Source of the DNA: Roseicyclus marinus
Lineage (GTDB): Bacteria; Pseudomonadota; Alphaproteobacteria; Rhodobacterales; Rhodobacteraceae
DNA: 64,000 nucleotides
Reading direction: 5' to 3'
Assembly (NCBI RefSeq): GCF_030163795.1
Contig: NZ_JASJOF010000002.1
Location: 310,001 to 374,000 of the forward strand
Positions 30,319 to 46,248 of the stretch are shown here, in pieces; the first letter of the stretch is position 1, and each line of letters starts with the position of its first letter. Position numbers and translations under genes: made by a program. The notes under the pieces are model-generated. The model was given only the letters and a program-made list of their open reading frames with translations, had not been told where the DNA came from and made no database searches.

Positions 30319-30339
30319 ACGCCGCGCGACGACCTGACC

Positions 30340-30369
30340 GGGGCCGGTCCTTCGCGGGCCGGCCCCTTT
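30340..30369 (+). promoter_or_regulatory. intercistronic hairpin after binding-protein gene
   Basis: GGGGCCGG (30340-30347) and CCGGCCCC (30359-30366) form an 8-bp perfect stem with an 11-base loop, followed by TTTG. It sits between the solute-binding-protein gene and the first permease gene. Such hairpins act as partial terminators or 3-prime stabilisers that keep binding-protein expression above permease expression. Confidence 0.65.
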
Positions 30370-30388
30370 GCTTGAACCGGGGTTTTCC

Positions 30389-31312
30389 ATGTCCACGATC
30401 CTGATCGTCGAACAGGTGCTGAACGGCTTGCAGTTCGGCGTGATGCTGTTCCTGATGGCCGCGGGCCTGACGCTGATCTTCGGCGTGATGGGCCTGATCA
30501 ATCTGGCGCATGGATCGCTCTACATGGTGGGGGGCTTCGTCGCGGCGGTGGTCGCGGGCCTCACCGGCTCTTTCACGTTGGCGCTGATCGCCGCGATGGC
30601 CGCCGCAGCCATGGCAGGCGCGCTGATCGAGATGACGGTCATCCGCCGCCTTTATCACACCGACCATCTGGACCAGGTGCTGGCGACCTTCGCCCTGATC
30701 CTGATCTTTTCCGAAGGCACGCGGTGGGCTTTCGGCTCCTTCCCCCTCTACCTGTCGCGGCCCGAGGCGCTGGCGGGGTCCGTCACGCTGCCCTTCGGCA
30801 TCGAATACCCCCTCTACCGGCTTGCGTTGATCGGGGCGGGGCTGGCGGTGGCCGTGGGCCTGTGGCTCCTGATCGCCAAGACTCGGCTGGGCATCCAGAT
30901 CCGCGCGGGCGAAAACGACCGCGAGATGATCGCGGCCTTGGGCGTCGATATCCGCACGCTCTACACTTTCGTCTTCGCCCTTGGCGCGGCACTGGCGGGG
31001 CTTGCGGGTGCGCTCGTGGGCGCGATCCAGTCGGTTCAGGTCGGCATGGGAGAGCCCGTGCTGATCCTCGCCTTCGTCGTCATCGTCATAGGGGGCATCG
31101 GCTCGATCAAAGGGGCCTTCGTCGGCGCGCTGATCGTGGGGCTGACCGATACGCTGGGCGGCATCTTCCTGCCCGAACTGTTCAAGCTGGTGATGGAACC
31201 CGCAGCCGCCACGCAGGTCGGTGCCTCGCTCTCCTCCATGGCGATCTACCTGTTGATGGCGATCGTCCTGATCTGGAAGCCCACGGGCCTTTACGGGGCG
31301 CGCACCGCATGA
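30389..31312 (+). CDS. branched-chain amino acid-type ABC permease (LivH-like)
   Basis: A 307-residue inner-membrane permease of the LivH family, with about eight hydrophobic helices. The NGLQFGVMLFLMAAGLTLIFGVMGLINLAHG opening is the typical LivH motif area, and the conserved GSIKGAFVGALIVG coupling region lies near the C-terminus. The ATG at 30389 follows the hairpin and a G-rich GGGGTTTTCC. It overlaps the next permease start (ATGA at 31309-31312). Confidence 0.92.
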   Translation: MSTILIVEQVLNGLQFGVMLFLMAAGLTLIFGVMGLINLAHGSLYMVGGFVAAVVAGLTGSFTLALIAAMAAAAMAGALIEMTVIRRLYHTDHLDQVLATFALILIFSEGTRWAFGSFPLYLSRPEALAGSVTLPFGIEYPLYRLALIGAGLAVAVGLWLLIAKTRLGIQIRAGENDREMIAALGVDIRTLYTFVFALGAALAGLAGALVGAIQSVQVGMGEPVLILAFVVIVIGGIGSIKGAFVGALIVGLTDTLGGIFLPELFKLVMEPAAATQVGASLSSMAIYLLMAIVLIWKPTGLYGARTA

Positions 31313-32292
31313 GCCGGGAATGGATCGTCAACGCCGCCCTGATCGCGGGGCTGATCGCCGTGCCGCTCTGGGCGCATCTGTCGGGCGAACCCTTTACCAT
31401 CACGCTGGCCACCCGCGCCGTGATCTTTGCACTTGCCGCCGTGGGTCTGAACCTCGCGCTCGGGCTGGGCGGCATGGTCAGTTTCGGGCATGCCGTCTTT
31501 TTCGGGCTGGGCGGCTATTCCATGGGCATCCTTGCCCATCACGCGCAGAATTTCCTGCCGCTTTATGACGGTTTGTTCCTGATCGAGGGCACGAAATCCA
31601 TGCCCGTGATCTGGCTCGTGGCGATCCTCGTCTCGGCCCTTGCCGCGCTTTTGATCGGCCTCCTGTCGCTTCGGACCTCGGGCGTTTATTTCATCATGAT
31701 CACCTTGGCCTTCGGGCAGATGTTCTACTATTTCGCCATCTCCTGGCGCGCCTATGGCGGTGAGGACGGTCTGTCGATCTGGGTGAGGAACGGGTTTCCG
31801 GGGCTGAACACGCTCGACCCGATCCAATTCTACTGCCTGTGTTTCGCGCTGTTGTGCGCGGCGCTCTGGCTGTCGGCCCGGATCGCGCGCTCGCCCTTCG
31901 GGCTGGTCCTGAACGCCGCGCGGCAGGTGCCCGCGCGGGTGGAAACCGTGGGGCTCGACGGGCAGCGGGCGAAACTCGTGGCCTTCGTCATCTCGGGCGC
32001 GATCACGGGATTGGCCGGCGCGCTCTTTGCCGATCTCAACCGCTTCGTCAGCCCAACGATGTTCAGCTGGCACATGTCGGGCGAGATCATGATCTTCATC
32101 ATCCTCGGTGGCGTCGCACGGCTTTTCGGGCCAGTCGCGGGGGCGGTTCTGTTCGTCGCGATGGAACATGTGCTGGGCGATCTCTGGGATCATTGGCACA
32201 TTCTTCTGGGGGGCCTCCTTCTGGTCATCGTCTTGTTCGGACGCGGCGGGGTGATCGGTCTTCTGGCCGGAAAGGCGCAGAGCCATGACTGA
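31309..32292 (+). CDS. branched-chain amino acid-type ABC permease (LivM-like)
   Basis: A 327-residue second permease of the LivHM heterodimer. The ALAAVGLNLALGLGGMVSFGHA segment and the SGAITGLAGALFADLNRFVSP region near residue 225 are LivM hallmarks. About nine hydrophobic segments are visible. It is coupled to the upstream permease by a 4-bp overlap, and its 3-prime end overlaps the livG-like start by 8 bp. Confidence 0.92.
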   Translation: MSREWIVNAALIAGLIAVPLWAHLSGEPFTITLATRAVIFALAAVGLNLALGLGGMVSFGHAVFFGLGGYSMGILAHHAQNFLPLYDGLFLIEGTKSMPVIWLVAILVSALAALLIGLLSLRTSGVYFIMITLAFGQMFYYFAISWRAYGGEDGLSIWVRNGFPGLNTLDPIQFYCLCFALLCAALWLSARIARSPFGLVLNAARQVPARVETVGLDGQRAKLVAFVISGAITGLAGALFADLNRFVSPTMFSWHMSGEIMIFIILGGVARLFGPVAGAVLFVAMEHVLGDLWDHWHILLGGLLLVIVLFGRGGVIGLLAGKAQSHD

Positions 32293-33034
32293 TCCGGTTC
32301 TCGAGGTGCGCGGCTTGACCAAGCGTTTCGGGGCGCTGGTGGTGTCGGACGGCATCGACCTGACGCTGAAACGCGGCGAGATCCACGCCGTCATCGGCCC
32401 GAACGGGGCGGGCAAATCGACCCTCATCGCGCAGATCTGCGGCGGCCTTGCCCCCGATGCGGGCACCATCCGCCTCAAGGGCCGCGATGTGACCGCCCTG
32501 CCCACCCGTACCCGCGCGCGGATGGGGCTTGCGCGCACCTTCCAGATCTCGGCGCTGGCGATGGAGGATACGGCGCTTCAGAACGCGCTTCTGGGGGCGC
32601 TGGGCGCTGCGGGAACGCCGTGGCGGTTCTTCGGCCCCGCCCTATCGGACCCAGCCCTGCGCAAGGTGGCCGAAACCGCGCTCGACCGCGTAGGCCTGTC
32701 GGACAAGGCGGGGCATCGCACCGCGGAACTCTCCCACGGTGAACGCCGCCAGCTCGAAGTCGCGGTGGCCCTGACGCTACGGCCCGCCGCCTTCATCATG
32801 GACGAGCCCATGGCCGGTCTCGGGTCCGAGGGCGGCGCGCGGATGACCGCGCTTCTCGACAGGTTGCGGCACGAGGCCCCGATCCTTCTGGTGGAACACG
32901 ACATGGACGCGGTCTTTGCGCTCGCCGACCGGATCAGCGTTCTGGCGGGCGGCCGCGTCATCGCCAGCGGCCCGCCTGACGCGATCCGCACAGATACCGC
33001 CGTACGCGAAGCCTATCTGGGGGACGAGGCATGA
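32285..33034 (+). CDS. ABC ATP-binding protein (LivG-like)
   Basis: A 249-residue ATPase subunit. Walker A is GPNGAGKST, the signature is LSHGERRQLE, Walker B is AFIMDEPMAG and the switch histidine lies in LLVEHDMD. GEIHAVIGPNGAGKSTL is typical of the LivG subgroup. Its start lies 8 bp inside the permease gene and its stop overlaps the livF-like start, so the transporter genes are tightly coupled. Confidence 0.93.
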   Translation: MTDPVLEVRGLTKRFGALVVSDGIDLTLKRGEIHAVIGPNGAGKSTLIAQICGGLAPDAGTIRLKGRDVTALPTRTRARMGLARTFQISALAMEDTALQNALLGALGAAGTPWRFFGPALSDPALRKVAETALDRVGLSDKAGHRTAELSHGERRQLEVAVALTLRPAAFIMDEPMAGLGSEGGARMTALLDRLRHEAPILLVEHDMDAVFALADRISVLAGGRVIASGPPDAIRTDTAVREAYLGDEA

Positions 33035-33717
33035 GCCTTCTGACGCTCGAACAGGTGACCGCCCGCTACGGCGCCGCGCAGGCGCTTTTCGGCGTAGACC
33101 TCAGCCTCGACGAGGGCGAGGTGCTGGCGCTCATGGGCCGCAATGGGATGGGCAAATCGACGACGGTCAAGACGATCTGCCGGATGCTGCCCGCCGAAGG
33201 GCGGCTGGTGTTTGACGGCCATGACCTAGCGCGACTGTCGAGCCATCAGGCGGCGCGTCTGGGCATCGGCCTTGTCCCCGAGGGGCGGCGCTGCTTCCGC
33301 GACCTGACCGTTGCGGAAAACCTGATCGTGGCGGCCCGTCCGGGGCATTGGGACATGGCGCGTATCGGCGCGCTGTTTCCCCGGCTCGCCGAACGGCAGG
33401 GGCAGCGCGCGGCGACGCTGTCGGGCGGCGAACAGCAGATGCTCGCCATCGGCCGCGCGCTCATGACCAATCCCCGTCTCCTGATCCTCGACGAGGCGAC
33501 CGAGGGGCTCGCCCCCCTGATCCGGGCCGAGATCTGGGCCGTGATCGCCCGGCTCAAGGCCGAAACCGGGCTTGCCATCCTCGTCATCGACAAATCGCTC
33601 CGGGAATTGCGGCAGGTCGCCGACCGCGCCGCGATCCTTGCGCGCGGTCAGGTGGTCTGGACCGGGGCGATGGACGCCCTCGATCACGAGACTTCCTTGC
33701 GCCACGTCGGCGTCTGA
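33031..33717 (+). CDS. ABC ATP-binding protein (LivF-like)
   Basis: A 228-residue second ATPase subunit. Walker A is GRNGMGKST, the signature is LSGGEQQMLA, and Walker B is LLILDEATEGLAP. The usual LivF switch region VEQN reads VIDKS here, so the switch histidine is not obvious and the LivG-like partner may carry the dominant site; this is inference from inspection. It is the last gene of the five-gene transporter set. Confidence 0.9.
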   Translation: MSLLTLEQVTARYGAAQALFGVDLSLDEGEVLALMGRNGMGKSTTVKTICRMLPAEGRLVFDGHDLARLSSHQAARLGIGLVPEGRRCFRDLTVAENLIVAARPGHWDMARIGALFPRLAERQGQRAATLSGGEQQMLAIGRALMTNPRLLILDEATEGLAPLIRAEIWAVIARLKAETGLAILVIDKSLRELRQVADRAAILARGQVVWTGAMDALDHETSLRHVGV

Positions 33718-33819: not shown

Positions 33820-33840
33820 GAACCAATCGTGGAATGGTTC
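33820..33840. promoter_or_regulatory. candidate GntR operator
   Basis: A perfect inverted repeat GAACCA-N9-TGGTTC lies 37 bp upstream of the gntR start. A further TTGGTTC copy follows at 33854-33860. The spacing and position fit autoregulation by the GntR protein encoded next, which would also control the coupled peptide-transport operon. The assignment is by position only. Confidence 0.45.
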
Positions 33841-33877
33841 GCTCCTATGCGGCTTTGGTTCAACTCGAGGTGGAAAA

Positions 33878-34612
33878 TTGCGCGACGAGCTTCCACGATC
33901 CGACCCGGCGGCCGACAACGCCTCGGTCGCGCGCAAGCATATCCGCGAGCTGATCCGCACCGGCGCGCTTGAGGCCGAGGGGAAGCTTCCGACCGAACGC
34001 GATCTTTGCGCCCGGTTCGGCATCAGCCGCCGCTCGGTCCGCCGCGCCCTCGACGCGCTCGAAGCCGAAGGGCTGGTCTGGCGGCGTCAGGGAAAAGGCA
34101 CCTTCGCGGGCCAGCCACCCGATCCCAACGGGCACCTTGCGGCCCGGATCGCGCCCGATGCCGACCCCCTCAGCGTGATGGAGGCACGTCTGGCGCTGGA
34201 GCCGGAACTGGCGGCGCTGGCCGCCCGCCGCGCCACGGGCGAGGATGTGGCGCGGATGCGCGCGCTGGCCGAACGCGCGGGCCACGCCCGCGACGCGGAT
34301 GCCGCCGAACTCTGGGATGGATCGCTCCACCGCATGATCGCGCGGATCGCAGGCAACCCGATCCTCAACACCGCCTTCACCCTCATCAACGAAGTGCGGC
34401 AGGAACAGCGCTGGCAACAGGAACGCCAACAGGCCCGCTCGCCCGAACGGGTGGCCGAATACGCGCGTCAGCACGACAGCATCATCGCCGCCATCGACGC
34501 CCGCGACGAAGAGGGCGCGCGCGCCGCGATGCGCGCCCACCTATCCGCGCTCAAGGCCAATCTGGAACGCCTGCGCGACCAAGACATGACAGACCGGGGG
34601 ACGACGGAATGA
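33878..34612 (+). CDS. GntR-family regulator (FadR subgroup)
   Basis: A 244-residue regulator. The N-terminal winged helix-turn-helix includes the LPTERDLCARFGISRRSVRRAL recognition region (about residues 37-58), and an all-helical FCD ligand domain follows (about 85-235). The start is a TTG preceded by GAGGTGG at good spacing. No upstream ATG fits the domain boundary. Its stop overlaps the dppD-like start (ATGA), so it is the first gene of the peptide-transport operon and is probably its local regulator. The effector is unknown. Confidence 0.85.
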   Translation: MRDELPRSDPAADNASVARKHIRELIRTGALEAEGKLPTERDLCARFGISRRSVRRALDALEAEGLVWRRQGKGTFAGQPPDPNGHLAARIAPDADPLSVMEARLALEPELAALAARRATGEDVARMRALAERAGHARDADAAELWDGSLHRMIARIAGNPILNTAFTLINEVRQEQRWQQERQQARSPERVAEYARQHDSIIAAIDARDEEGARAAMRAHLSALKANLERLRDQDMTDRGTTE

Positions 34613-35613
34613 CCGACGCACCGCTTCTGGAACTGGAAAAGCTGACCATCGCGCTCAAGGGCGTGGATCAGCCCATCGTCGACGATGTGGGCTTCACTCT
34701 GTCGCGTGGTGAAACGCTCTGCATCGTGGGCGAAAGCGGCTGCGGCAAAAGCCTGACCTCGCTCGCGCTGATGGGCCTGTTGCAGACCCCGCCGCTCCGG
34801 GTGACCGGCGGCACGGCACATTTCGCGGGCGAGGATCTCTTGTCCATGGGCACCGCCCGCCTGCGCCAGATCCGCGGCGGCAAGATGGCGATGATTTTCC
34901 AGGAACCGATGACCTCGCTCAATCCCGGCCTCAGGATCGGCGAACAGATCGCGGAATCCGTGCGCCGCCACAAAGGCCTGTCACATCAGGATGCCCGCGC
35001 CCGCGCGCTGGAAATGTTGCGCCGCGTCCGCATCCCCGCCCCGGAAAAGCGGCTGGACGAATACCCCCACCAACTGTCGGGCGGGATGCGCCAGCGCGCC
35101 ATGATCGCCATGGCGCTGGCCAATGACCCCGAGCTTCTGATCGCCGACGAACCCACCACCGCGCTCGACGTGACGATCCAGGCGCAGATCCTGCGACTGA
35201 TGCGCAGCCTGCAACAGGAAACCGGTGCCGCCATGGTTCTCATCACCCATGACCTCGGCGTCGTGGCCGAAATGGCCGACAAGGTCGCGGTCATGTATGG
35301 CGGCCGCATCGTCGAGGCGGGCAGCGCCGAACAGGTTTTCACCGATCCCCAGCATCCCTACACGATCGGGCTCATGTCCTCGATGCCGTCGCTGGGCGCG
35401 CGCGCCGGTCGGCTCGTCACCGTGCCCGGCACCGTGCCGCAACCCGCCCAGATGCCGCCCGGCTGCCGCTTCGCCACCCGCTGCCCCTTTGCGACATCGG
35501 CCTGCACGCTGGTGCCCTCCCTGACCGATCTGGGCGGGGGCCACCGCGTCGCCTGCGCCCATGCGCCCCTCACCGCCCTCGAGACCCCGGCCCTGCGGAG
35601 CACCGGCACATGA
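34609..35613 (+). CDS. oligopeptide ABC transporter ATP-binding protein (DppD-like)
   Basis: A 334-residue ATPase of the Opp/Dpp family. Walker A is [18 protein letters not shown] is the Q-loop, the signature is [15 protein letters not shown], Walker B is [12 protein letters not shown] and the switch is ITHDLG. The C-terminal extension has the [14 protein letters not shown] cysteine motif that forms an iron-sulfur cluster in DppD relatives. It is coupled to gntR and to the next ATPase gene by 4-bp overlaps. Confidence 0.93.
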
Positions 35614-36689
35614 CAGCGATCCTCTCGACCCGAGACCTCCGCAAGGACTTCGTGACCGCCAAACCGCTCTTTGGCGAGGCGACGGTCGTGCGCGCCGTGG
35701 CGGGCGTCTCGCTCGACATCGCCGAGGGCGAGACCTTCGCCATCGTGGGCGAAAGCGGCTGCGGGAAATCCACGCTTGCCCGGCTTCTCCTGCGCCTGAT
35801 CGACCCCACGGCAGGCGAGGTCTGGTACAAGGGCGAGGATCTGGCCAGCCTTCCGCCCGCCCGCCTCCGCGCCCTGCGCCGCGAGCTGCAATTCATCTTT
35901 CAGGACCCGTTTTCCTCCCTCAATCCGCAGATGACCGTCGGTGCCCTGATCGAAGAACCGCTGCGCACCCATGGCATCGGCACGCCGCCCGAGCGTCGGG
36001 CCAAGGTGGCCGATCTCTTGACCCGCGTGGGCCTGCGCCCCGAACATGCCGACCGCTACCCGCACGAGTTTTCCGGCGGCCAGCGTCAGCGGATCGGCAT
36101 CGCCCGCGCGCTGGCCTCGGGGCCGTCCGTCCTGATCGGGGATGAACCCGTAAGCGCGCTCGATGTCTCGATCCAGGCGCAGGTGGTGAACCTGCTTGAG
36201 GATCTGAAACAAGATTTCGGCCTGACGCTTATCGTCATCGCCCATGACCTCGCCGTGATCCGGCACATGGCCGACCGTGTGGCCGTCATGTATCTGGGCG
36301 AGGTGGTGGAATGCGGGCCTGCCGCCGATCTCTACGCCAACCCGAAACACCCCTATACCGAGGCGCTTCTGGCCGCGATCCCGGTCGCCAGCTACGGCGC
36401 GCGCGCCGCCCGCACCATGGTCGAGGGCGATCCCCCGAACCCAATCTCGCCACCGCCGGGCTGCCGGTTCCACCCGCGCTGCCCCTATGCGACCGACCTG
36501 TGCCGCAGCGAACGGCCCGCGCTCACCGATCTGGGCGCGGGACGCAGCGTCGCCTGCCACCGCGCGGCGGACCTGTCGCTCGACGGTCTGGACGATGTGG
36601 CCCAATCCCGCACACCCGCCGCCCGCGACCGCTTCGCGCTCTACGCGCGGGCGATGGCGGACAAACCACACCAAAAAAGCCCGGAATAG
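35610..36689 (+). CDS. oligopeptide ABC transporter ATP-binding protein (DppF-like)
   Basis: A 359-residue second ATPase subunit of the peptide transporter. It has [21 protein letters not shown], the signature FSGGQRQRIGIARAL and Walker B VLIGDEPVSALD. The C-terminal CRFHPRCPYATDLC cluster motif is present. Walker B has Gly where Ala or Cys is usual, which is a mild variation. Its start overlaps the dppD-like stop, and the binding-protein gene follows after 37 bp. Confidence 0.93.
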   Translation: MTAILSTRDLRKDFVTAKPLFGEATVVRAVAGVSLDIAEGETFAIVGESGCGKSTLARLLLRLIDPTAGEVWYKGEDLASLPPARLRALRRELQFIFQDPFSSLNPQMTVGALIEEPLRTHGIGTPPERRAKVADLLTRVGLRPEHADRYPHEFSGGQRQRIGIARALASGPSVLIGDEPVSALDVSIQAQVVNLLEDLKQDFGLTLIVIAHDLAVIRHMADRVAVMYLGEVVECGPAADLYANPKHPYTEALLAAIPVASYGARAARTMVEGDPPNPISPPPGCRFHPRCPYATDLCRSERPALTDLGAGRSVACHRAADLSLDGLDDVAQSRTPAARDRFALYARAMADKPHQKSPE

Positions 36690-36726
36690 GGCGATTTCAC
36701 CCCTCAACAGACGGAGAAAAGAACTG

Positions 36727-38238
36727 ATGGCACTCAAGAAAAACCTCGCGCTCGCGCTGGCCTTCGGGCTGGTGGCTGGCGCCGCTCAAGCGCAGGACCT
36801 GCGCATCGGGCTTCAGGACGACGCCGATGTGCTCGACCCTGATCAGGCGCGCACCTTCGTCGGCCGGATCGTGTTTGAATCGCTCTGCGACAAGCTGGTC
36901 GACATCACCCCCGATCTGGAAATCATCCCCCAACTCGCCACGGCCTGGGAATTTTCCGAGGACGGCATGACGCTGACCATGTCGCTGCGCGAAGGCGTGG
37001 TCTTCCATGACGGCACGCCCTTCAATGCCGAAGCGGCGATCTACAACCTCAACCGCAGCCGCACCCTGCCCGAAAGCCGCCGCGCCTCCGAGGTCAGCTC
37101 GATCTCGGACATCGAAGCGGTGGACGACAGCACGATCCGCATCACCCTGTCGGCCCCCGATGCGACGCTTCTGGCGCAGCTGTCGGACCGCGCGGGCATG
37201 ATGATCTCGCCCGCCGCCGCCGAGGCCGCTGGCCTCGACTTCGGCCTGAACCCGGTCTGCTCCGGCCCCTACAGCTTCGTCGAGCGCATCCAGCAGGACC
37301 GTATCGTCCTGTCGCGTTTCGCCGATCACTGGAACGCCGATGCCTATGCCTTCGAGACCGTGACCTTCCTGCCGATCCCCGACACGACCGTGCGTCTGGC
37401 CAACCTGCGCGCGGGCGATCTGGACATGCTGGAACGTCTGGCCGCGACCGACCTCGCCTCGGCCTCTTCCGACGCGGCGCTGGAAACCGCACAGGCGACC
37501 TCGCTCGGCTATCAGGCAATCACGATCAACGTCGGCAACGGCGAGAACGCGAACGGCCCGCTGGGCACCGACGCCCGCGTGCGTCAGGCGCTGTCGCTGT
37601 CGATCGACCGTTCCGTGATCGCACAGGTGGTCTTCGAGGGCGCTGTCGCCCCCGGCAACCAGCCCTGGCCGCCGACCTCGCCCTGGTACAACGCCGATTT
37701 CCCGATCCAGGACCGTGACGTGGAGGCCGCCCGCGCCCTTCTGGCCGAAGCCGGCTATCCCGATGGCGTCGACATCAGCGTGCAGGTCGCCAACAACCCC
37801 GTGCAGCAGCAGGTCATGCAGGTGGTTCAGGCCATGGCCGCCGAGGCGGGTATCCGCATCTCGCTCGAGGCCAAGGAATTCGCCACGCTCCTCTCCGACC
37901 AGTCGGCAGGCGCCTATACCGCCAGCCAGGTCGGCTGGTCGGGCCGCGTCGATCCCGATGGCAACATCCACCAGTTCGTGACGACCGACGGCGGCATCAA
38001 CGATGCGGGCTATTCCAACGCCGAGGTTGACGGCTTCCTGAACGGGGCGCGGGTCTCCAACGACGTGGCCGAACGGCGCGCGGCCTATAACGGGGCCTCG
38101 GCCATCCTGATGCAGGATCTGCCCATCGTCTACCTGTACCACCCGGTCTGGATCTGGGCGATGGAAGCCGGCATCGACGGCTTTGTGCCCTACCCCGACG
38201 GCATGATCCGCCTTGCCGGCGTGACCATGGCCGAGTGA
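36727..38238 (+). CDS. peptide ABC substrate-binding protein (family 5)
   Basis: A 503-residue periplasmic binding protein of the DppA/OppA family. The signal peptide MALKKNLALALAFGLVAGAAQAQ (cleavage near 22) is clear. The family opening (QDDADVLDPDQA, later LREGVVFHDGTPFNAEA) and the late SLSIDRSVIAQVVFEGAVAP segment are present. GGAGAAAAGAACTG precedes the ATG. The ligand could be a dipeptide, a gamma-glutamyl compound or glutathione-like; the downstream GGT homologue makes the latter attractive but unproven. Confidence 0.9.
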   Translation: MALKKNLALALAFGLVAGAAQAQDLRIGLQDDADVLDPDQARTFVGRIVFESLCDKLVDITPDLEIIPQLATAWEFSEDGMTLTMSLREGVVFHDGTPFNAEAAIYNLNRSRTLPESRRASEVSSISDIEAVDDSTIRITLSAPDATLLAQLSDRAGMMISPAAAEAAGLDFGLNPVCSGPYSFVERIQQDRIVLSRFADHWNADAYAFETVTFLPIPDTTVRLANLRAGDLDMLERLAATDLASASSDAALETAQATSLGYQAITINVGNGENANGPLGTDARVRQALSLSIDRSVIAQVVFEGAVAPGNQPWPPTSPWYNADFPIQDRDVEAARALLAEAGYPDGVDISVQVANNPVQQQVMQVVQAMAAEAGIRISLEAKEFATLLSDQSAGAYTASQVGWSGRVDPDGNIHQFVTTDGGINDAGYSNAEVDGFLNGARVSNDVAERRAAYNGASAILMQDLPIVYLYHPVWIWAMEAGIDGFVPYPDGMIRLAGVTMAE

Positions 38239-38252
38239 GCCAAAGCTGAACC

Positions 38253-38283
38253 GGCGCGCGGGCGGCACCCCTGCCCGCGCGCC
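38253..38283 (+). promoter_or_regulatory. strong intercistronic hairpin
   Basis: GGCGCGCGGGC (38253-38263) and GCCCGCGCGCC (38273-38283) form a perfect 11-bp stem with a 9-base loop between the binding-protein gene and the dppB-like gene. There is no following T-run. It is more likely an mRNA-stabilising or attenuating element than a full terminator. Confidence 0.65.
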
Positions 38284-38311
38284 ACCTCCCTCCAACCTGC
38301 GGAGACGCCCG

Positions 38312-39256
38312 ATGCTCGCCTTTCTCGGACGACGCCTGCTGATCGCGATCCCGACGATCATCCTGATCTCGATCTTCGTCTTCACGCTTCAGAAACTGCT
38401 GCCGGGCGACCCCGTCTTGGTTCTGGCGGGCGAGGAACGCGACCCGGCGGTGCTGGAATACCTGCGCGAGCAATACCGGCTGAACGATCCGATCATCGTG
38501 CAGTATTTCCATTGGGTCGGTAACGCGCTGCAGGGCGATCTGGGCATTTCGCTGCGCACCCAGCAGCCGGTGCTGGAACTGATCGGACAAAAACTGCCCG
38601 TGACCATTCAACTGGCCGTCATGGCCCTGATCGTGGCCATCGCCATCGGCGTGCCCGCAGGCGTGCTGTCGGCCTACAAGAAAGGCACATGGATCGACTG
38701 GGTCGCCAATGTCGTGGCGCTGTCAGGGCTTTCGGTGCCGAACTTTTGGCTCGGGATCATGCTGATCTTGCTCATTTCGGTGAAACTTGGATGGCTGCCC
38801 GCCTCGGGCTACCAACCGTTTTCCGACGATCCGCTGGAATCCATCCGCACCATGCTGATGCCCGCCTTCGTGCTGGGCACGGGGCTGGCCGCCACGCTGA
38901 TGCGCCATACGCGCTCGGCCATGCTGAGCGTCCTGAAATCCGACTATATCCGCACCGCGCGCGCCAAGGGTCTGGCCGAACGCGTCGTGCTCATCAAACA
39001 CGCCCTGCGCAATGCGCTCGTGCCCATCGTCACCGTCACCACGCTCCTTTTCGGGGAATTGCTGGCGGGCGCGGTCCTGACCGAACAGATCTTCACCATC
39101 CCGGGTTTCGGCAAGCTGGTGGTCGATGCCGTCTTCAACCGCGATTACGCCGTGGTGCAGGGGATCGTTCTGTGCACCGGCGTCGCCTTCATCTTCATGA
39201 ACATCCTTGCCGATGCGGCCTATCGCATCCTCAACCCGCGCATGAGGGACGAATGA
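38312..39256 (+). CDS. peptide ABC permease (DppB-like)
   Basis: A 314-residue inner-membrane permease. It has an N-terminal helix after MLAFLGRRLLIAIPT, the LPGDPV segment typical of DppB, and the EAA-type coupling loop near DYIRTARAKGLAERVVLIKHALRNALVP. It overlaps the dppC-like gene start by 4 bp. It pairs with DppC to form the transmembrane channel. Confidence 0.93.
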   Translation: MLAFLGRRLLIAIPTIILISIFVFTLQKLLPGDPVLVLAGEERDPAVLEYLREQYRLNDPIIVQYFHWVGNALQGDLGISLRTQQPVLELIGQKLPVTIQLAVMALIVAIAIGVPAGVLSAYKKGTWIDWVANVVALSGLSVPNFWLGIMLILLISVKLGWLPASGYQPFSDDPLESIRTMLMPAFVLGTGLAATLMRHTRSAMLSVLKSDYIRTARAKGLAERVVLIKHALRNALVPIVTVTTLLFGELLAGAVLTEQIFTIPGFGKLVVDAVFNRDYAVVQGIVLCTGVAFIFMNILADAAYRILNPRMRDE

Positions 39257-40131
39257 GCAGTATCGCCACCAATCCCGCAGCACCCGAGACCCTGCCGCGC
39301 CGCCAAAGCCGCGTCTGGCGCAAGTTCCGCTCGAACAAGGCTGCCGTTCTGGGCGGCATCATTGTGGGCTTCTTCGTGATCGTGGCGCTCCTGGCCCCGT
39401 TCCTGCCGGTGCCGGGGCCCGCCGTCACCGATTGGGGCGCGGTGCGCCAAGGCCCGTCGGCGGCCCATCCTTTCGGCACCGACGAGATCGGGCGCGACGT
39501 GATGTCCCGGATGATCTGGGGCGCGCGCGCCTCGCTCACGGCGGGCGTCATCTCGGTCGCCATCGCGGTCCTGATCGGCGTGCCCCTCGGCGTGCTCTCG
39601 GGCTACCTGCGCGGCTGGACCGATGCCGCCATCTCCCGCGTGACCGAGGCGCTTTTGGCCGCGCCTTTCCTCATCCTCGCCATCGCGCTCGCGGCCTTTC
39701 TCGGGCCGTCGCTGACCAATGCGATGATCGCCATCGGCCTCTCCGCCGTGCCGATCTTCATCCGCCTTGCGCGCGGCCAGACCATGGCCGTCATGACCGA
39801 GGATTACGTCGAGAGCGCGCGCGCCGTGGGCCTGACCCATCTGGCGCTCATCACCCGCTACATCCTGCCCAACATCTTCCCCCCGATCCTCGTGCAATCG
39901 ACGCTGACCATCGCCACCGCGATCATCGCCGAGGCGTCGCTCTCCTTCCTCGGCCTTGGTCAGCAGCCCCCCGCGCCCAGCTGGGGCTCGATGCTCAACG
40001 TGGCCAAGAATTTCCTCGAACAGGCGCCGTGGATGGCGCTCTACCCCGGTGCCGCGATCTTTCTCGTGGTGCTGGGCTTCAACCTGCTGGGCGACGGCTT
40101 GCGAGATGCGCTCGACCCGCGTGACCACTGA
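39253..40131 (+). CDS. peptide ABC permease (DppC-like)
   Basis: A 292-residue second permease. A DppC-type cytoplasmic N-terminus (RRQSRVWRKFRSNKAAVLGG) precedes the first helix. HPFGTDEIGRDVMSRMIWGARASL and the EAA loop EDYVESARAVGLTHLALITRYILPN are family hallmarks. The ATG overlaps the dppB-like stop. The GGT-like gene begins 49 bp downstream. Confidence 0.93.
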   Translation: MSSIATNPAAPETLPRRQSRVWRKFRSNKAAVLGGIIVGFFVIVALLAPFLPVPGPAVTDWGAVRQGPSAAHPFGTDEIGRDVMSRMIWGARASLTAGVISVAIAVLIGVPLGVLSGYLRGWTDAAISRVTEALLAAPFLILAIALAAFLGPSLTNAMIAIGLSAVPIFIRLARGQTMAVMTEDYVESARAVGLTHLALITRYILPNIFPPILVQSTLTIATAIIAEASLSFLGLGQQPPAPSWGSMLNVAKNFLEQAPWMALYPGAAIFLVVLGFNLLGDGLRDALDPRDH

Positions 40132-40180
40132 TGCGCGCGTTCTGCGCGACCACTGATTTCAGAGAGAGACGGACAACATC

Positions 40181-41971
40181 ATGACCTTCACCACCCGCCC
40201 CGAGATCACCGGTACCTTCGGTGTCGCCACCTCGACCCATTGGATCGCCTCGGCGGTCGGCATGAAAATCCTCGAACAGGGCGGCAATGCCTTCGATGCT
40301 GCCGCCGCCATGGGCTTTGTCCTCAACGTGGTGGAGCCGCATCTGAACGGCCCGCTTGGCGACATGCCCCTCATGATCCGCACCGCCGGGGCCCCGGCGC
40401 CGCGCATGATCTGCGGTCAGGGCACGACGCCCGCCGGCGCTACCATCGCACATTACAAATCCGAAGGGCTGACGCTGATCCCCGGTTCAGGGTTGCTCGC
40501 CACGGTGATCCCCGGCGCCTTCGGGGCCTTCATGCTGATGCTGCGCGACCATGGCAGCCTGCCGCTCCGCCACATCCTTGAGCCCGCGATCCACTACGCC
40601 CGCCACGGCCACCCGATGCTGCCGCGCGTGGCGAACACCATCGCGGGCCTTGCCGATTTCTTCCGCGACGAATGGCCGACGTCCTACGCAACATGGCTGC
40701 CGGGCGGCAACGCGCCTGCGGCAGGCGCGCTGTTCTGCAACCCCGATCTCGCCGACACATGGGAACGCCTCGTGACCGAGGCGGAAAAAGCCACCGGCCG
40801 CGAGGCGCAGATCGAGGCCGCGCGCCATGCCTTCTACGAAGGCTTCATCGCCGAAGCCATCGACAGCTACATGGCTGAGGCCTGCGTGATGGATGCCGCC
40901 GGCGGGCGGCGCAAAGGCGTCCTCAACGGGCAGGACATGGCGACATGGCACGCCAGCTACGAGGATCCGCTGTCCGTCGACTATCAGGGCTGGACCGTCT
41001 GGAAGGGCGGCATGTGGACCCAAGGCCCGACGCTCCTGCAATCCTTGCGGATGCTCGAAGGGATCGACGTCGGCGCGATGGACCTGCGCGGGGCCGATTT
41101 CGTCCATACCGTGACCGAGACGATGAAACTCGCCTTCGCCGACCGCGAGGCCTATTACGGCGATCCCGACCACACCGACCTGCCGGTGGATACGCTCCTG
41201 TCCCGCGACTATGCCGCCCAGCGCCGCGCGCTGATAGGGGATCGCGCCTCGCGTGACCAGCGGCCCGGCCAGATCGCGGGGTATGAGGCATGGGCGCGCG
41301 CCGCCGTGGAACGCGCGGGTCGCGACATGGCGACAGGGCCCGGCGTCGGAGGGGGCGAACCCACCATGGCGCATCTGACCGAACGGCGCGGCGATACCGT
41401 CCATCTCGATGTGATCGACCGCTGGGGCAATTCGGTCTCGGCCACGCCCTCGGGCGGCTGGCTGCAATCCTCGCCCGTGGTTCCGGGCCTCGGGATGCCG
41501 CTCAATTCCCGCGCCCAGATGTTCTGGCTCGACGAGGGCCTGCCCACCTCGCTGGCGCCCGGCCGCCGCCCGCGCACGACGCTCTCCCCCTCCATGGGCC
41601 AGGCGCCCGACGGCACGGAACTGGCCTTCGGCACACCCGGCGGCGACCAGCAAGATCAGTGGCAGCTGATCTTGTTCCTGCGCCTCGTCCACGGGCAGAT
41701 GAACCTGCAAGAGGCGATCGACGCGCCCCTGTTCCACACCGGGCATTTCCAGTCGTCCTTCTACCCGCGCGGCACGCGGCCGGGTCACCTGATGGCCGAA
41801 CCCGCCTTCGGCGAGGCCGTGCTTCAGGCGCTCCGCGACAAGGGCCACGAGGTCGAGGTCTCCGAACCTTGGGCGGTCGGGCGTCTCACCGCCGCCTCCC
41901 GCGATACCGGCGGCATGCTCAGGGCTGCGGCGACCCCGCGCCTGATGCAGGCCTATGCCATCGGACGCTGA
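40181..41971 (+). CDS. gamma-glutamyltransferase homologue lacking catalytic Thr
   Basis: A 596-residue protein of the GGT (Ntn-hydrolase) family, which normally cleaves gamma-glutamyl bonds after self-processing at a threonine. The N-terminal GGNAFDAAAAM and LNVVEPHLNG segments, and the C-terminal AFGTPGGDQQDQWQ glycine pair, align well. At the position of the TTHYSVVD nucleophile the sequence is DTVHLDVIDRWGN, so the catalytic Thr is Val (about Val407). It also lacks a signal peptide, unlike periplasmic GGTs. It may be unprocessed and either non-catalytic or mechanistically different. It sits directly after the peptide transporter and 12 bp before a DUF1028 gene. Confidence 0.85.
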   Translation: MTFTTRPEITGTFGVATSTHWIASAVGMKILEQGGNAFDAAAAMGFVLNVVEPHLNGPLGDMPLMIRTAGAPAPRMICGQGTTPAGATIAHYKSEGLTLIPGSGLLATVIPGAFGAFMLMLRDHGSLPLRHILEPAIHYARHGHPMLPRVANTIAGLADFFRDEWPTSYATWLPGGNAPAAGALFCNPDLADTWERLVTEAEKATGREAQIEAARHAFYEGFIAEAIDSYMAEACVMDAAGGRRKGVLNGQDMATWHASYEDPLSVDYQGWTVWKGGMWTQGPTLLQSLRMLEGIDVGAMDLRGADFVHTVTETMKLAFADREAYYGDPDHTDLPVDTLLSRDYAAQRRALIGDRASRDQRPGQIAGYEAWARAAVERAGRDMATGPGVGGGEPTMAHLTERRGDTVHLDVIDRWGNSVSATPSGGWLQSSPVVPGLGMPLNSRAQMFWLDEGLPTSLAPGRRPRTTLSPSMGQAPDGTELAFGTPGGDQQDQWQLILFLRLVHGQMNLQEAIDAPLFHTGHFQSSFYPRGTRPGHLMAEPAFGEAVLQALRDKGHEVEVSEPWAVGRLTAASRDTGGMLRAAATPRLMQAYAIGR

Positions 41972-41983
41972 GGGGGGGCAGAG

Positions 41984-42739
41984 ATGACCTATTCCATCGT
42001 CGCGCGTGACCCCGAAACCGGCCATTACGGCGTGGCCGTTGCCAGCCGCTTCTTCGCCGTGGGCGCGCTGGTGCCCCATCTGCGGGGCGGCAAATGCGCG
42101 GTCGCCACGCAGGCTTTCGTCTCCCCCATCTGGGGGATGGAGGCCGCCGACCGCATGGCAAAGGGCGAGGCCGGGGCCGATGTGCTGGCCGACATGGTCG
42201 CGCGCGACGGCGGCCAGCATATCCGCCAGGTCCACATGATCGACAGCACCGGCCATATCGCAGCCCATACGGGCGCCAATTGCGTCGATTGGTGCGGCCA
42301 TGTGGCGGGCGACGGCGTCTCTGTCGCGGGCAACATGCTGGCAGGCCCCGACGTGATCGCGCAGACGCTTGCCGCCTATCAGGCGCACATGCACCTGCCG
42401 CTCGCCCAGCGCCTGATGACCGCGATGGAGGCGGGCGAGGTCGCGGGCGGCGACAAGCGCGGCACGCAATCGGCCGCACTCGTGATCCACAGGACAGAGG
42501 ATTATCCGTGGCTGTCGCTCCGTGCCGATGACCACATCGACCCCTTGGGCGAATTGCGCCGCCTCTACGACGTGGCCCACGAACGCTTTGTCCATGTCGC
42601 GGACGCCATGCCGACGCGCGACAATTTCTCGGGGACGACCGACCGCAGCGGCATCGACGCGGCCATCGCCGCCGAGGAGGCGAGACGCCGCGCCGCAGGT
42701 CGCGTCAGCCGCTCCTTCGCCACCGATCTGGGGGCCTGA
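41984..42739 (+). CDS. DUF1028 family protein
   Basis: A 251-residue DUF1028 protein. The MTYSIVARDPETGHYGVAVASRFFAVG start is the domain's signature, and the ATQAFVSPIWG and GVSVAGNML segments are also typical. The family has been placed in the Ntn-hydrolase superfamily. If the initiator Met is removed, Thr2 would be a candidate N-terminal nucleophile; that is inference. It lies 12 bp after the GGT-like gene in the GntR-peptide transporter operon, suggesting a hydrolase for the imported compound. The C-terminal region is helical and Ala/Arg-rich. Confidence 0.85.
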   Translation: MTYSIVARDPETGHYGVAVASRFFAVGALVPHLRGGKCAVATQAFVSPIWGMEAADRMAKGEAGADVLADMVARDGGQHIRQVHMIDSTGHIAAHTGANCVDWCGHVAGDGVSVAGNMLAGPDVIAQTLAAYQAHMHLPLAQRLMTAMEAGEVAGGDKRGTQSAALVIHRTEDYPWLSLRADDHIDPLGELRRLYDVAHERFVHVADAMPTRDNFSGTTDRSGIDAAIAAEEARRRAAGRVSRSFATDLGA

Positions 42740-42803
42740 GACCGGTACGGGTGGCACTCACCGGCCTTTGCCTTAGGTATCCTTGCCAAAAGGAAGCGCC
42801 GTC

Positions 42804-44075
42804 ATGATCGCCACTCGTACCTTCGCCCGCCTGACCGGGACAGCCCCGGACGACCTGCCTGATGAGGAGGCAAGGAACGGCCTCATCCATGTGGCCTCCC
42901 TGACCCTGACCAAGACGGCCGATGCGCTGATCGACCCAAAGCTGGTTCTGTCGTGGCTTATGTCCGCCCTCGGCGCGCCGGGCGCGATGATCGGCGCGCT
43001 GGTGCCCCTGCGCGAGGCGGGCGCGCTCTTGCCGCAACTCGCACTGGCCCGCTACGTGGAGTCCAGCCCCCAACGCAAACGGATCTGGGCAACGGCGGCG
43101 GCCCTTCAGGGGCTTGCCGCGCTCGGCATCGCCCTTGCCGCCCTGACGCTCGACGGCGCCGTTGCGGGTGGCGCGATCCTCGCCTGCCTCGGACTGCTCG
43201 CCATGGCGCGGGCGGGCGCATCGGTCAGCCAGAAAGACGCGCTCGCGCGCACCATCGCCAAGGGTCGGCGCGGCACCGTCACGGGCATCGCTGGATCGGT
43301 CGCGGCAACAAGCGTGCTGGCCGTGGGCGCGCTTCTGGCCACGGGTCTTTTCGAGACGGCGATCACCCCCCTTGCCGTGCTGGTCGCTGTGGCGGGCGCG
43401 GCCTTTCTGGTCGCCGCCGCGATCTTTCTGCGGCTTCGCGAACCGTCCCGAACGCCCGAAGACGCGGACAGGGATGGCGGGCTCTCCGCCCTCGTCGAAC
43501 CGATCCTCAGCGATGGCCAGTTGCGGCTTTTCGTGGCCTCGCGTGTCGCGCTGGCGGTCACGGCGCTGGCCCCGCCCTTCATCGTGCTCCTGTCGGCCAG
43601 CTCGGCACAGGCGTCGCTGGGCGACCTCGGGCCGCTTGTCATCGCCTCGACCTCGGCCTCCATCTCGGCGGCCTATGTCTGGGGACGGCTGTCGGACCGC
43701 TCCAGCCGCCAGACCCTGATGGCTGCGGGCGCACTGGCCGCGCTGGTCTTCGCGGCCATCGCCACCCTTGCCCTGAGCTTCGGCGGCCTTGGCGGCGCTT
43801 GGGGCGCGGCGGGGGCGATCTTTGCCGCGCAGATCGCCTACGAGGGCGTCCGCGCGGGCCGCAAGCTGCACCTCACCGACATGGCCGAGGATGCGTTCCG
43901 CGCCCGCTACACCGCGCTTTCGAACACGCTGGTCGGCGTGGCGCTCTTGGCGGGCGGTCTCTTCGGACTGGTGGCGGACCGGTTCGGCCCCGCCGTCGTG
44001 TTGCTGCTTTTCGCGGCAATCGCGGCCATCGGCGTTGCGCTGGCCCGTGGTCTGGACGAGGTTCAGACCGACTGA
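42804..44075 (+). CDS. MFS-type transporter
   Basis: A 423-residue membrane protein with about ten or more hydrophobic segments and an MFS-like organisation, including the loop motif VWGRLSDRSSRQTL between helices of the second half. The N-terminus is a soluble stretch of about 30 residues. The ATG at 42804 has AAAGGAA 8 bases upstream; a TTG at 42783 is less likely. It precedes eutB by 50 bp in the same direction, so it may import ethanolamine, but that role is position-based. The substrate is not evident from sequence. Confidence 0.75.
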   Translation: MIATRTFARLTGTAPDDLPDEEARNGLIHVASLTLTKTADALIDPKLVLSWLMSALGAPGAMIGALVPLREAGALLPQLALARYVESSPQRKRIWATAAALQGLAALGIALAALTLDGAVAGGAILACLGLLAMARAGASVSQKDALARTIAKGRRGTVTGIAGSVAATSVLAVGALLATGLFETAITPLAVLVAVAGAAFLVAAAIFLRLREPSRTPEDADRDGGLSALVEPILSDGQLRLFVASRVALAVTALAPPFIVLLSASSAQASLGDLGPLVIASTSASISAAYVWGRLSDRSSRQTLMAAGALAALVFAAIATLALSFGGLGGAWGAAGAIFAAQIAYEGVRAGRKLHLTDMAEDAFRARYTALSNTLVGVALLAGGLFGLVADRFGPAVVLLLFAAIAAIGVALARGLDEVQTD

Positions 44076-44125: not shown

Positions 44126-45502
44126 ATGGCCTATCACATCGACCTGAACGGCACGCGCTACAACTTCCCCTCGCTCAAGGGGCTGCTCGCCCGCGCCTCG
44201 CCCGAACGCAGCGGCGATGCGCTGGCCGGTCTCGCCGCCGACGGCCCGCTGGAACGGATCGCCGCGCAGCATTGCCTGGCCGATGTGCCCCTGTCCGATT
44301 TCCTCGCGGACGTGCTGGAGGTCGAGGGCGATGGCGTCACCGCCCTCATCATGGCGCAGCATGACACCCGGGCCTTTGCGCCAGTCGCCTCGCTCACCGT
44401 GGGGGGCTTTCGCGACTGGCTCCTCGATCCCGCCACGACGGGCCAAACGCTGGCCCGCCTCGCCCCCGGCCTGACGCCCGAAATGGTCGCCGCCGTCTCC
44501 AAGATCATGCGCGCCCAAGACCTGATCGCCGTCGCCGCCAAGGTCGAGGTCGTCACGCGCTTTCGCTCGACCATCGGCCTGCGCGGCCGCCTGTCGACCC
44601 GCAACCAGCCCAACCACCCGACCGACGACAGCCGGGGCATCGCGCTCTCGGCGCTCGACGGGCTTTTGATGGGCGCGGGTGACGCGGTGATCGGGGTGAA
44701 CCCCGCCACCGACAGCCTGCCCGATTACATCCGCATCTGCGAGGTTCTGGACGCAATCCGCACCCAGCTTGAGATCCCCACGCAAACCTGTTGCCTCGGC
44801 CACGTCACAACCGCCCTCGCCGCGATGGAGGCCCGCGCGCCCGTCGACCTCGTCTTCCAATCCGTCGCCGGCTCGGACAAGGCCAACGCGGGCTTCGGCG
44901 TGACCCTCTCCCTGCTGGATGAAGCCGCCGAGGCCGTGGCGTCCCTGAACCGCGCGCCACCCGGCGCGAACCTGATGTATTTCGAAACCGGTCAGGGCGC
45001 GGCGCTGTCCGCCGATGCCCATCACGGCATGGACCAGCAGACGATGGAGGCGCGCGCCTATGCCGTGGCCCGCCGCTACCGCCCGCTTCTGGTCAACACG
45101 GTCGTGGGCTTCATCGGCCCGGAATACCTCGCCGATGGCAAGCAGATCACCCGCGCGGGGCTCGAGGATCACTTCTGCGGCAAGCTTCTGGGCCTGCCGA
45201 TGGGCGTCGACGTCTGCTACACCAATCACGCTTGGGCCGATCAGGACGACATGGATATTCTCCTGACGGCGCTTGCCACGGCCGGCGTGAATTTTGTCAT
45301 CACTGTGCCGGGCGGCGACGACATCATGCTCAATTACCAAAGCCTGTCCTTCCATGACGCGGCCTATATCCGCGACACGCTGGGACGGCCGCCCGCCCCC
45401 GAATTCGCCGAATGGATGGCCCGGCACGGGATCGGCACGCCAGACGCCGACCTGCCCCCGCTCGATGCCGCCCTGTCGCACCTGCGGCTGCCCGCAGCAT
45501 GA
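44126..45502 (+). CDS. eutB: ethanolamine ammonia-lyase large subunit
   Basis: A 458-residue catalytic subunit of the B12-dependent lyase converting ethanolamine to acetaldehyde and ammonia. STRNQPNHPTDDSRGIAL and LLMGAGDAVIGVNPATDS are EutB signatures, and MYFETGQGAALSADAHHG contributes the active-site region. The start is ATG 44126. The stop overlaps eutC (ATGA). No microcompartment shell, eutA reactivase or eutG is present, so the enzyme should work free in the cytoplasm. Confidence 0.95.
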   Translation: MAYHIDLNGTRYNFPSLKGLLARASPERSGDALAGLAADGPLERIAAQHCLADVPLSDFLADVLEVEGDGVTALIMAQHDTRAFAPVASLTVGGFRDWLLDPATTGQTLARLAPGLTPEMVAAVSKIMRAQDLIAVAAKVEVVTRFRSTIGLRGRLSTRNQPNHPTDDSRGIALSALDGLLMGAGDAVIGVNPATDSLPDYIRICEVLDAIRTQLEIPTQTCCLGHVTTALAAMEARAPVDLVFQSVAGSDKANAGFGVTLSLLDEAAEAVASLNRAPPGANLMYFETGQGAALSADAHHGMDQQTMEARAYAVARRYRPLLVNTVVGFIGPEYLADGKQITRAGLEDHFCGKLLGLPMGVDVCYTNHAWADQDDMDILLTALATAGVNFVITVPGGDDIMLNYQSLSFHDAAYIRDTLGRPPAPEFAEWMARHGIGTPDADLPPLDAALSHLRLPAA

Positions 45503-46248
45503 GCCCGAAGCCCCCCAGCCCCCGCGACGAAATCCGCGCCCTGACCGAGGCGCGGCTGACCTTCGGCCCCCGCGGACGGGCCATTGCCACGCCCGAAGCG
45601 CTGGCCTTCGCGCTCGACCATGCCCGGGCGCGGGCGGCGGTCGCGGCGGAACTGGACCTGCCCGCCCTGGCCTCGGCCCTCGGCCGGCTCGGGATGGCCC
45701 ATCGCACCGTGACCAGCGCGGCGGGTGACCGCGCGACCTTCATCCGCCGCCCCGACCTCGGCCGCCGCCTCCCCGAGACCGAGGCGGCGCAGCTTGCCGA
45801 TGCCTATCCCTGCGACGTCGCTCTGGTGTTGGGTGACGGGCTTTCCGCCACAGCGGTGGCGCTGAACGGCGTGGCCTTCCTGTCCGCGCTCTTTGACCGG
45901 CTGACCGCGATGGGCCTGCGGCTTTCGCCCGTCATCCTCGCCCGGCAGGCGCGCGTTGCGCTGGGGGACGGGATCGCTCGCGCCATGGGGGCGCAAACCG
46001 TGGTGATGGCGCTTGGCGAACGGCCCGGCCTGTCAGCGGCCGACAGCCTTGGGGCCTATGTCATCCACCTGCCCCGCCCCGACACGCCCGACAGCGCGCG
46101 CAACTGCATCTCGAACATCCGCAACGCGGGCCTTCCCGTGGCCGAAGCCGCCGATCAGGCCGCGCGCCTGATTGCTGCGATGCGCGCCACGGGCCAAAGC
46201 GGCGTCGATCTCAGCCGCGCCATGGCGGCAGGCACGCTCCCCCGCTGA
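45499..46248 (+). CDS. eutC: ethanolamine ammonia-lyase small subunit
   Basis: A 249-residue EutC subunit. LVLGDGLSATAVALNG contributes the cobalamin-binding part, and PDSARNCISNIRNAGLP is the C-terminal EutC hallmark. Its start overlaps the eutB stop, giving 1:1 translational coupling for the (EutB-EutC) complex. The C-terminus ends a few bases from the convergent TauE-like gene with no obvious hairpin between them. Confidence 0.94.
   Translation: MSPKPPSPRDEIRALTEARLTFGPRGRAIATPEALAFALDHARARAAVAAELDLPALASALGRLGMAHRTVTSAAGDRATFIRRPDLGRRLPETEAAQLADAYPCDVALVLGDGLSATAVALNGVAFLSALFDRLTAMGLRLSPVILARQARVALGDGIARAMGAQTVVMALGERPGLSAADSLGAYVIHLPRPDTPDSARNCISNIRNAGLPVAEAADQAARLIAAMRATGQSGVDLSRAMAAGTLPR

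Follow-up and report, generated by a model that had tools for sequence, protein, structure and literature searches.

A predicted uptake-catabolic operon joining an LmbA2991-like GGT homologue and a DUF1028 protein to a Dpp-type importer in Roseicyclus marinus

What kind of compound would a bacterium import through a Dpp-type transporter and then pass to two predicted N-terminal nucleophile (Ntn) hydrolases? The question is raised by a 64,000-nucleotide stretch of Roseicyclus marinus DNA (the window, whose numbering is used throughout), in which eight genes on the + strand encode an FCD-type GntR regulator, DppD, DppF, a binding protein, DppB, DppC, a 596-residue homologue of gamma-glutamyltransferase (GGT; 40181..41971) and a 251-residue DUF1028 protein (41984..42739). 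We observe a conserved gene content and order, intact nucleophile residues, an altered gamma-glutamyl pocket and joint variation of DUF1028 and Dpp linkage. On this basis the locus is probably an uptake-catabolic operon, which would import a compound other than a gamma-glutamyl one and hydrolyse it in the cytoplasm with the two Ntn hydrolases. In the predicted scheme, the Dpp-type ATP-binding cassette (ABC) importer, controlled by the FCD GntR protein, would bring in a small amide- or peptide-like compound. The GGT-like enzyme, made as a single chain, would cleave itself between Asp405 and Thr406, after which Thr406 would form an acyl-enzyme with a non-gamma-glutamyl substrate. Thr2 of the DUF1028 protein, exposed by methionine removal, would hydrolyse the same compound or its product further. 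The activity of both enzymes, their cytoplasmic location, the order of the steps and the substrate class are predictions of this scheme.

The two predicted hydrolases

The GGT homologue matches PF01019 (MEROPS T3) at 369 bits (cut-off 27), and its best relative of solved structure is LmbA2991 (6J3A; phmmer E 4.5e-186, 623 bits as against 178 for the next different protein), to which it is 54.0% identical over 587 columns. Its AlphaFold model (predicted local distance difference test score 85.8) places LmbA2991 chains at Foldseek ranks 1–3, with template modelling (TM) scores of 0.88–0.91, and the protein misses the equivalog cut-off of NCBIfam TIGR00066, the model for true gamma-glutamyltransferase, with 252.4 against 357.85 bits. 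Window residue 406, a threonine that follows Asp405, was aligned by phmmer with residue 1 of the mature GGT small chains in the Protein Data Bank; it also aligns with Thr421 of LmbA2991 and Thr391 of the E. coli enzyme. The LmbA2991 Thr421Ala mutant 6J3I differs precisely at this position (the identities of 6J3A and 6J3I were taken from the entry titles). The Asp405-Thr406 codons (41393..41398) thereby mark the expected autoprocessing point and nucleophile, at a site that reads RGD-TVHLDVIDRW. According to PMC5519988, LmbA2991 of Streptomyces lincolnensis autoprocesses at the Asp420-Thr421 bond, giving a small chain that begins TCHLDVVDRW, and every tried replacement of Thr421 abolishes activity. 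Since Thr406 aligns with this required residue, the earlier note on this DNA, which had described a GGT-fold protein without its nucleophile, was mistaken on that point, and we rejected a missing nucleophile. Thr406 is kept in all 40 members of a clade alignment made up of the window, nine operon loci and 30 orphan loci. The GGT of Puniceibacterium antarcticum (L013), whose reading contains a stop, was omitted from one GGT alignment but entered in the 91-protein tree described below with the stop as a gap.

The substrate pocket is altered. Arg114, Asn411, Gln430 and Asp433 of the E. coli enzyme are the residues that we take to bind the gamma-glutamyl group; the positions of the first, third and fourth are occupied by Gln, Arg and Met in 40/40 clade members, and Asn411 is aligned with a gap in the clade, as it is in LmbA2991. 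The arginine at the Gln430 position is common to LmbA2991, to HpxW, presumably an oxamate hydrolase, and to three YwrD-type proteins, members of another branch of the GGT family with 2NLZ as best solved match. The window's genome encodes one other PF01019 protein, 38% and 39% identical to two YwrD-type proteins, and it too is without Arg114 and Gln430. Judged from these alignments, gamma-glutamyl chemistry is unlikely for the GGT-like enzyme, and the gamma-glutamyl-like substrate proposed earlier is disfavoured.

The importer leads to a similar view. Pfam identifies the SBP_bac_5 and oligo_HPY ATPase components of a five-component Dpp/Opp-type importer, and the best NCBIfam matches of the binding protein and DppC are Gsi glutathione-importer models. 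Together with the GGT family membership, this could suggest a system that takes up and recycles glutathione or some other peptide of the gamma-glutamyl kind. However, the Gsi cut-offs are missed by a wide margin (GsiB 198/594, GsiC 285/463 and GsiD 288/484 bits), and with the pocket residues replaced throughout the clade we regard this explanation as very unlikely. Because the Gsi, Dpp and Nik equivalog cut-offs are not reached, no ligand is assigned to the importer.

Catalysis by the GGT-like protein is better supported than its absence. An inactive or modified GGT-like protein, with hydrolysis left to DUF1028 alone, was the version favoured by the earlier note, and it can draw on the occurrence of each gene without the other, but the nucleophile and the Asp-Thr processing pair are both intact. 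We give this version hardly any credence, and its non-catalytic part is unsupported. Processing and catalysis are instead supported because the protein belongs to the same family as LmbA2991, for which autoprocessing and Thr-dependent catalysis have been demonstrated (PMC5519988), and from their sequences both Ntn hydrolases look active.

PMC5519988 also reports that LmbA2991 hydrolyses a pyrroline C–C bond by an Ntn-hydrolase mechanism at about 37% of the conversion seen with Ant6, that the oxalate co-product was demonstrated with Ant6, and that the authors call the intrinsic role of LmbA2991 unclear. Because of this kinship, an oxalyl or C–C type reaction by the GGT-like enzyme is possible by analogy. 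A corresponding alternative is that the enzyme would perform LmbA-type C–C or oxamate-type C–N hydrolysis through an oxalyl-Thr intermediate, and that the operon would catabolise an alpha-keto or oxalyl compound. The 54% identity to a pyrroline hydrolase and the arginine shared with HpxW and the YwrD-type proteins favour this alternative. Yet LmbA2991 has lower activity than Ant6 and no established native substrate, so its C–C activity may be incidental. A ring-cleaving partner, for which no systematic search was made, is hinted at only by one gene of the Glyoxalase/dioxygenase superfamily (L006:10779-11510), which lies downstream of the operon in that locus, on the opposite strand, and has a relative in L007. 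We regard the oxalyl alternative as possible though not probable. More speculatively, the operon might show where LmbA2991-type enzymes naturally belong: in a widespread catabolic pathway whose two threonine Ntn hydrolases act in succession on an imported compound, one by breaking a C–C or oxalyl bond. The DUF1028 family would thereby gain its first function.

The DUF1028 protein, a predicted Ntn hydrolase, matches PF06267 at 234 bits (cut-off 26.2). Its model (predicted local distance difference test score 82.7) best matches 2IMH, followed by HslV and proteasome subunits. The codon of its predicted nucleophile, Thr2, lies at 41987..41989, and the assignment to Thr2, after removal of Met1, rests on conservation in relatives: it is present in 47/47 close and 32/32 distant DUF1028 proteins (close meaning at least 50% identity; matches shorter than 500 bases or with stops were left out). 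Also invariant in these 79 proteins are Gln43, Gln82, Gly97, Gly116, Asn117, Leu119 and Gly155. His84, Cys100, Asp183, Glu190 and Arg193 mark the close clade, where each occurs in 47/47, as against 2, 3, 2, 9 and 12 of the 32 distant proteins, respectively. The 2IMH protein, SPO2555, the single solved representative of DUF1028, is described in PMC9140057 as uncharacterised, with an N-terminal threonine and a seventh subfamily in SCOPe, although that review doubts a discrete subfamily. Our literature search returned no paper on a characterised DUF1028 member, and the term DUF1028 itself was found in no paper of the collection searched.

DUF1028 genes also occur in other settings. In the window's genome a second DUF1028 gene (39% identical; L067:8776-15916) has a GntR gene on one side and a Dpp-type set on the other, and beside the corresponding set in a related genome, G005 (L081), there is an M20-type peptidase gene. 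For 10 of 21 distant DUF1028 loci (L002, L040-L059), a match to a family 5 binding protein appears in the flanking sequence, of which at most 1.5 kb per side was covered. On plasmids of Klebsiella variicola and Aminobacter, DUF1028 follows RidA near an acetylornithine-deacetylase-type gene; the Klebsiella plasmid carries an FAD oxidoreductase, RidA, DUF1028 and the deacetylase-type gene in a row (L145:6301-9822), and 110 Klebsiella plasmid records have a DUF1028 match. A candidate GGT-DUF1028 fusion in Jannaschia (H80) was not found on inspection: the DNA that follows the GGT gene matches DUF1028 in two separate frames. On a Jannaschia plasmid (L061:13785-14451) such two-frame matches follow an intact GGT gene, and the DUF1028 gene looks broken.

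Linkage of the GGT homologue, DUF1028 and the importer

Gene contexts were taken mainly from tblastn because gene predictions were partly wrong in this high-GC DNA. Public genome contigs scanned with DUF1028 yielded 28 loci, a sample conditioned on that gene, and 20 of them match the window in having all eight genes in the same order. Three others (L005, L015 and L028) are cut by contig ends, and in L019 the ATPases have moved downstream. In L004 and L012 it is a YwrD-type GGT that follows DUF1028, and L027 and L029 have no close GGT. In 292 genomes of the order, where close means at least 57% identity for GGT and at least 54% for DUF1028 (one of 77 GGT rows, G129 at 34%, was not counted), a close GGT is present in 76, a close DUF1028 in 39 and both in 36, a co-occurrence with a Fisher p of 2e-21, uncorrected for kinship. 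The two genes lie within 19 bp of each other in 34 genomes, so that 34/39 close DUF1028 genes, but 34/76 close GGT genes, are paired in this way. Across 385 genomes of the host's class, GGT was found in 76 at E 1e-120 and DUF1028 in 48 at E 1e-40. The culturable relatives Sulfitobacter and Tritonibacter carry copies on plasmids.

Sixteen of the 34 adjacent pairs were inspected (the window, L068, L070, L071, L131-L141 and L143); the close Dpp set adjoins 15 of them, and L133 has a different Dpp set as neighbour. At E 1e-100, an orthologous binding protein was found in 0/30 orphan-GGT genomes and in 10/10 operon genomes, which served as control. In loci that lack the close GGT (L004, L012 and L104-L106), DUF1028 of the same clade has a YwrD-type GGT and a Dpp set as neighbours, indicating a swap of partner; the last three, which lie beside another Dpp set, belong to the five cases of DUF1028 without an adjacent close GGT.

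Linkage was also followed on a GGT tree of 91 proteins (quick IQ-TREE, with the Shimodaira–Hasegawa-like approximate likelihood ratio test as sole support measure). Loci had to span at least 8000 bases and carry a GGT at 44% identity or more, which left 91, or 90 with the window included and identical proteins removed; part of them had entered because they bear DUF1028, and L061 was counted as DUF1028-linked despite its two frames. Dpp linkage requires a minimum of 14 changes on this tree and DUF1028 linkage 13. In independent pairs that differ in DUF1028 linkage, Dpp linkage differs the same way in a mean of 6.6/9 and the opposite way in 0 (median p 0.016, range 0.008-0.125). In independent pairs that differ in Dpp linkage, DUF1028 follows in a mean of 6.7/10 and is opposed in 0.3 (median p 0.031, range 0.008-0.219). 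The conserved order and this joint change support the earlier proposal of one uptake-and-processing unit.

Several findings weigh against that view. Of the 76 close GGTs, 42 are without an adjacent close DUF1028, 12 of these lying beside the close Dpp set and 30 not, so neither DUF1028 nor Dpp is needed for GGT function. In two genomes the close DUF1028 stands alone (L107, L108), with GGT and Dpp on another contig (L099, L097), and within the genus it is present in 6/13 genomes, some of them incomplete. The GGT also adjoins genes for a Pot-type ABC system (L148), a major facilitator superfamily (MFS) protein (L147), TctC (L151, L152) and TctA with TauE (L120), which makes a peptide uncertain as the substrate class. 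A pattern scan did not mark either end of the unit by a promoter or terminator, and with two promoter-like sites where 1.2 were expected and two terminator-like sites where 6.1 were expected it was uninformative. Scattering independent of the transporter, which the earlier note had named as an observation that would count against its proposal, is seen in part, in that 42/76 GGTs have no adjacent close DUF1028 and 30 of these are away from the close Dpp genes. The unpaired GGTs could also indicate that the GGT-like and DUF1028 genes are independent cargo of a mobile Dpp operon and share no substrate. Such independence is unlikely, however, as DUF1028 and Dpp linkage change together on the tree and DUF1028 still has a member of the GGT family next to it at loci in which the close GGT has been replaced.

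Outside the full operon, the GGT has varied neighbours. Two plasmid loci, of Paracoccus (L064) and Phyllobacterium (L066), combine Dpp and GGT without DUF1028. A Nonomuraea locus (L150) has the order binding protein-DppB-DppC-DppD-DppF-GGT (54%). A TauE gene overlaps this GGT, and the 21.8 kb examined show no match to DUF1028. The occurrence of the arrangement in this actinomycete means that the Dpp-GGT link is not confined to Alphaproteobacteria. No single partner is shared by the 30 orphan GGT loci, among which the neighbour clusters included FmdA/AmdA (5), AbrB (4), TauE (4) and TamA/TamB (4); Pfam was scanned on cluster representatives only, and in orphan locus L124 the sequence ahead of the GGT spans only about 2.4 kb.

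Three kinds of neighbour recur. A TauE/SafE-type permease gene lies directly downstream of an LmbA-like GGT in two phyla (L120 and L150 by Pfam; L115, L116 and L126 by BLAST cluster), and could hint at a sulfur-containing or acidic product. Acetamidase/formamidase family genes lie near GGTs without DUF1028 in L111 and L125 (Pfam), L064 (annotation) and L113, L119 and L124 (BLAST cluster). An M81 (MlrC-type) metallopeptidase gene is near the GGT in one Rhizobium locus (L019:2376-3830) and beside it in a Rhizobium plasmid locus (L065).

Layout and extent of the operon

The regulator (33878..34612), of the FadR subfamily, matches Pfam GntR and FCD over their cut-offs. It begins with a TTG start, the true start not being fixed, at a point downstream of the 33820 given earlier as the operon's beginning. 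The DppD/OppD-type ATPase (34609..35613) matches ABC_tran and oligo_HPY, with OppD as its best NCBIfam model, below that model's cut-off, and the DppF/OppF-type ATPase (35610..36689) reaches PRK11308 exactly at cut-off (408/408 bits). The family 5 solute-binding protein (36727..38238; SBP_bac_5, 283 bits), whose nearest NCBIfam model is GsiB, has an N terminus that appears signal-peptide-like by eye. The DppB-type permease (38312..39256) matches BPD_transp_1 and BPD_transp_1_N, and the DppC-type permease (39253..40131) matches BPD_transp_1 and OppC_N. Successive junctions measure -4 (GntR/DppD), -4 (DppD/DppF), 37 (DppF to binding protein), 73 (binding protein to DppB), -4 (DppB/DppC), 49 (DppC/GGT) and 12 bp (GGT/DUF1028). 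The tight one-strand packing of eight families described earlier was thus confirmed, with the gaps, then given as mostly 4–49 bp, ranging from -4 to +73 bp.

Upstream lies a Liv-type ABC set (29176-33717), in which only the binding protein was profile-scanned, the names of the remaining genes coming from inspection of the sequence. Downstream, the end placed earlier at 42739 closes the DUF1028 gene, and the unit may extend further: an MFS protein (42783..44075; MFS_1), possibly co-transcribed, follows on the same strand after 43 bp, and then, after 50 bp, eutB and eutC, for ethanolamine ammonia-lyase (44126..46248; EutB and EutC family matches). An operon continuing through these three genes could degrade an ethanolamine amide. 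The order DUF1028-MFS-eutB-eutC recurs in G005, the only other genome with an MFS match beside the operon by tblastn and gene tables, and eutBC stands behind DUF1028 in G004 and G008. However, EutBC adjoins the operon in just these four genomes of one genus (the window's, G004, G005 and G008; loci L005/L033, L007/L034 and L068) and in none of the other DUF1028/GGT loci inspected, and we consider the ethanolamine-amide explanation improbable.

Comparison with known systems

LmbA2991 (6J3A, 6J3I) resembles the window's GGT-like protein in full-length homology, the Asp-Thr pair, the threonine nucleophile and the same pocket changes; the window protein differs in being encoded in a Dpp operon with DUF1028, and its activity is predicted. 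E. coli Ggt shares the PF01019 fold, the threonine nucleophile and Gly483-Gly484, whereas the window protein is 30% identical to it, has no signal peptide visible by eye and is without Arg114, Asn411, Gln430 and Asp433. HpxW (5HFT) has the GGT-family fold, Thr1 and the arginine at the Gln430 position; the comparison covered the small chain, where identity is 35%. SPO2555 shares PF06267 and the position of the threonine nucleophile with the DUF1028 protein (TM 0.76-0.87), but is about 30% identical to it, and His84, Cys100 and Asp183 of the close clade are rare in distant members. The transporter has the two ATPases, two permeases and family 5 binding protein of Dpp/Opp/Gsi-type importers, and differs in falling below the Gsi, Dpp and Nik equivalog cut-offs. 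An importer joined to hydrolases and a regulator is a known kind of operon; what is new is a setting for two families without a known physiological role. As this operon ties LmbA2991-like and DUF1028 proteins to one importer, both functions can be tested by way of the binding protein's ligand.

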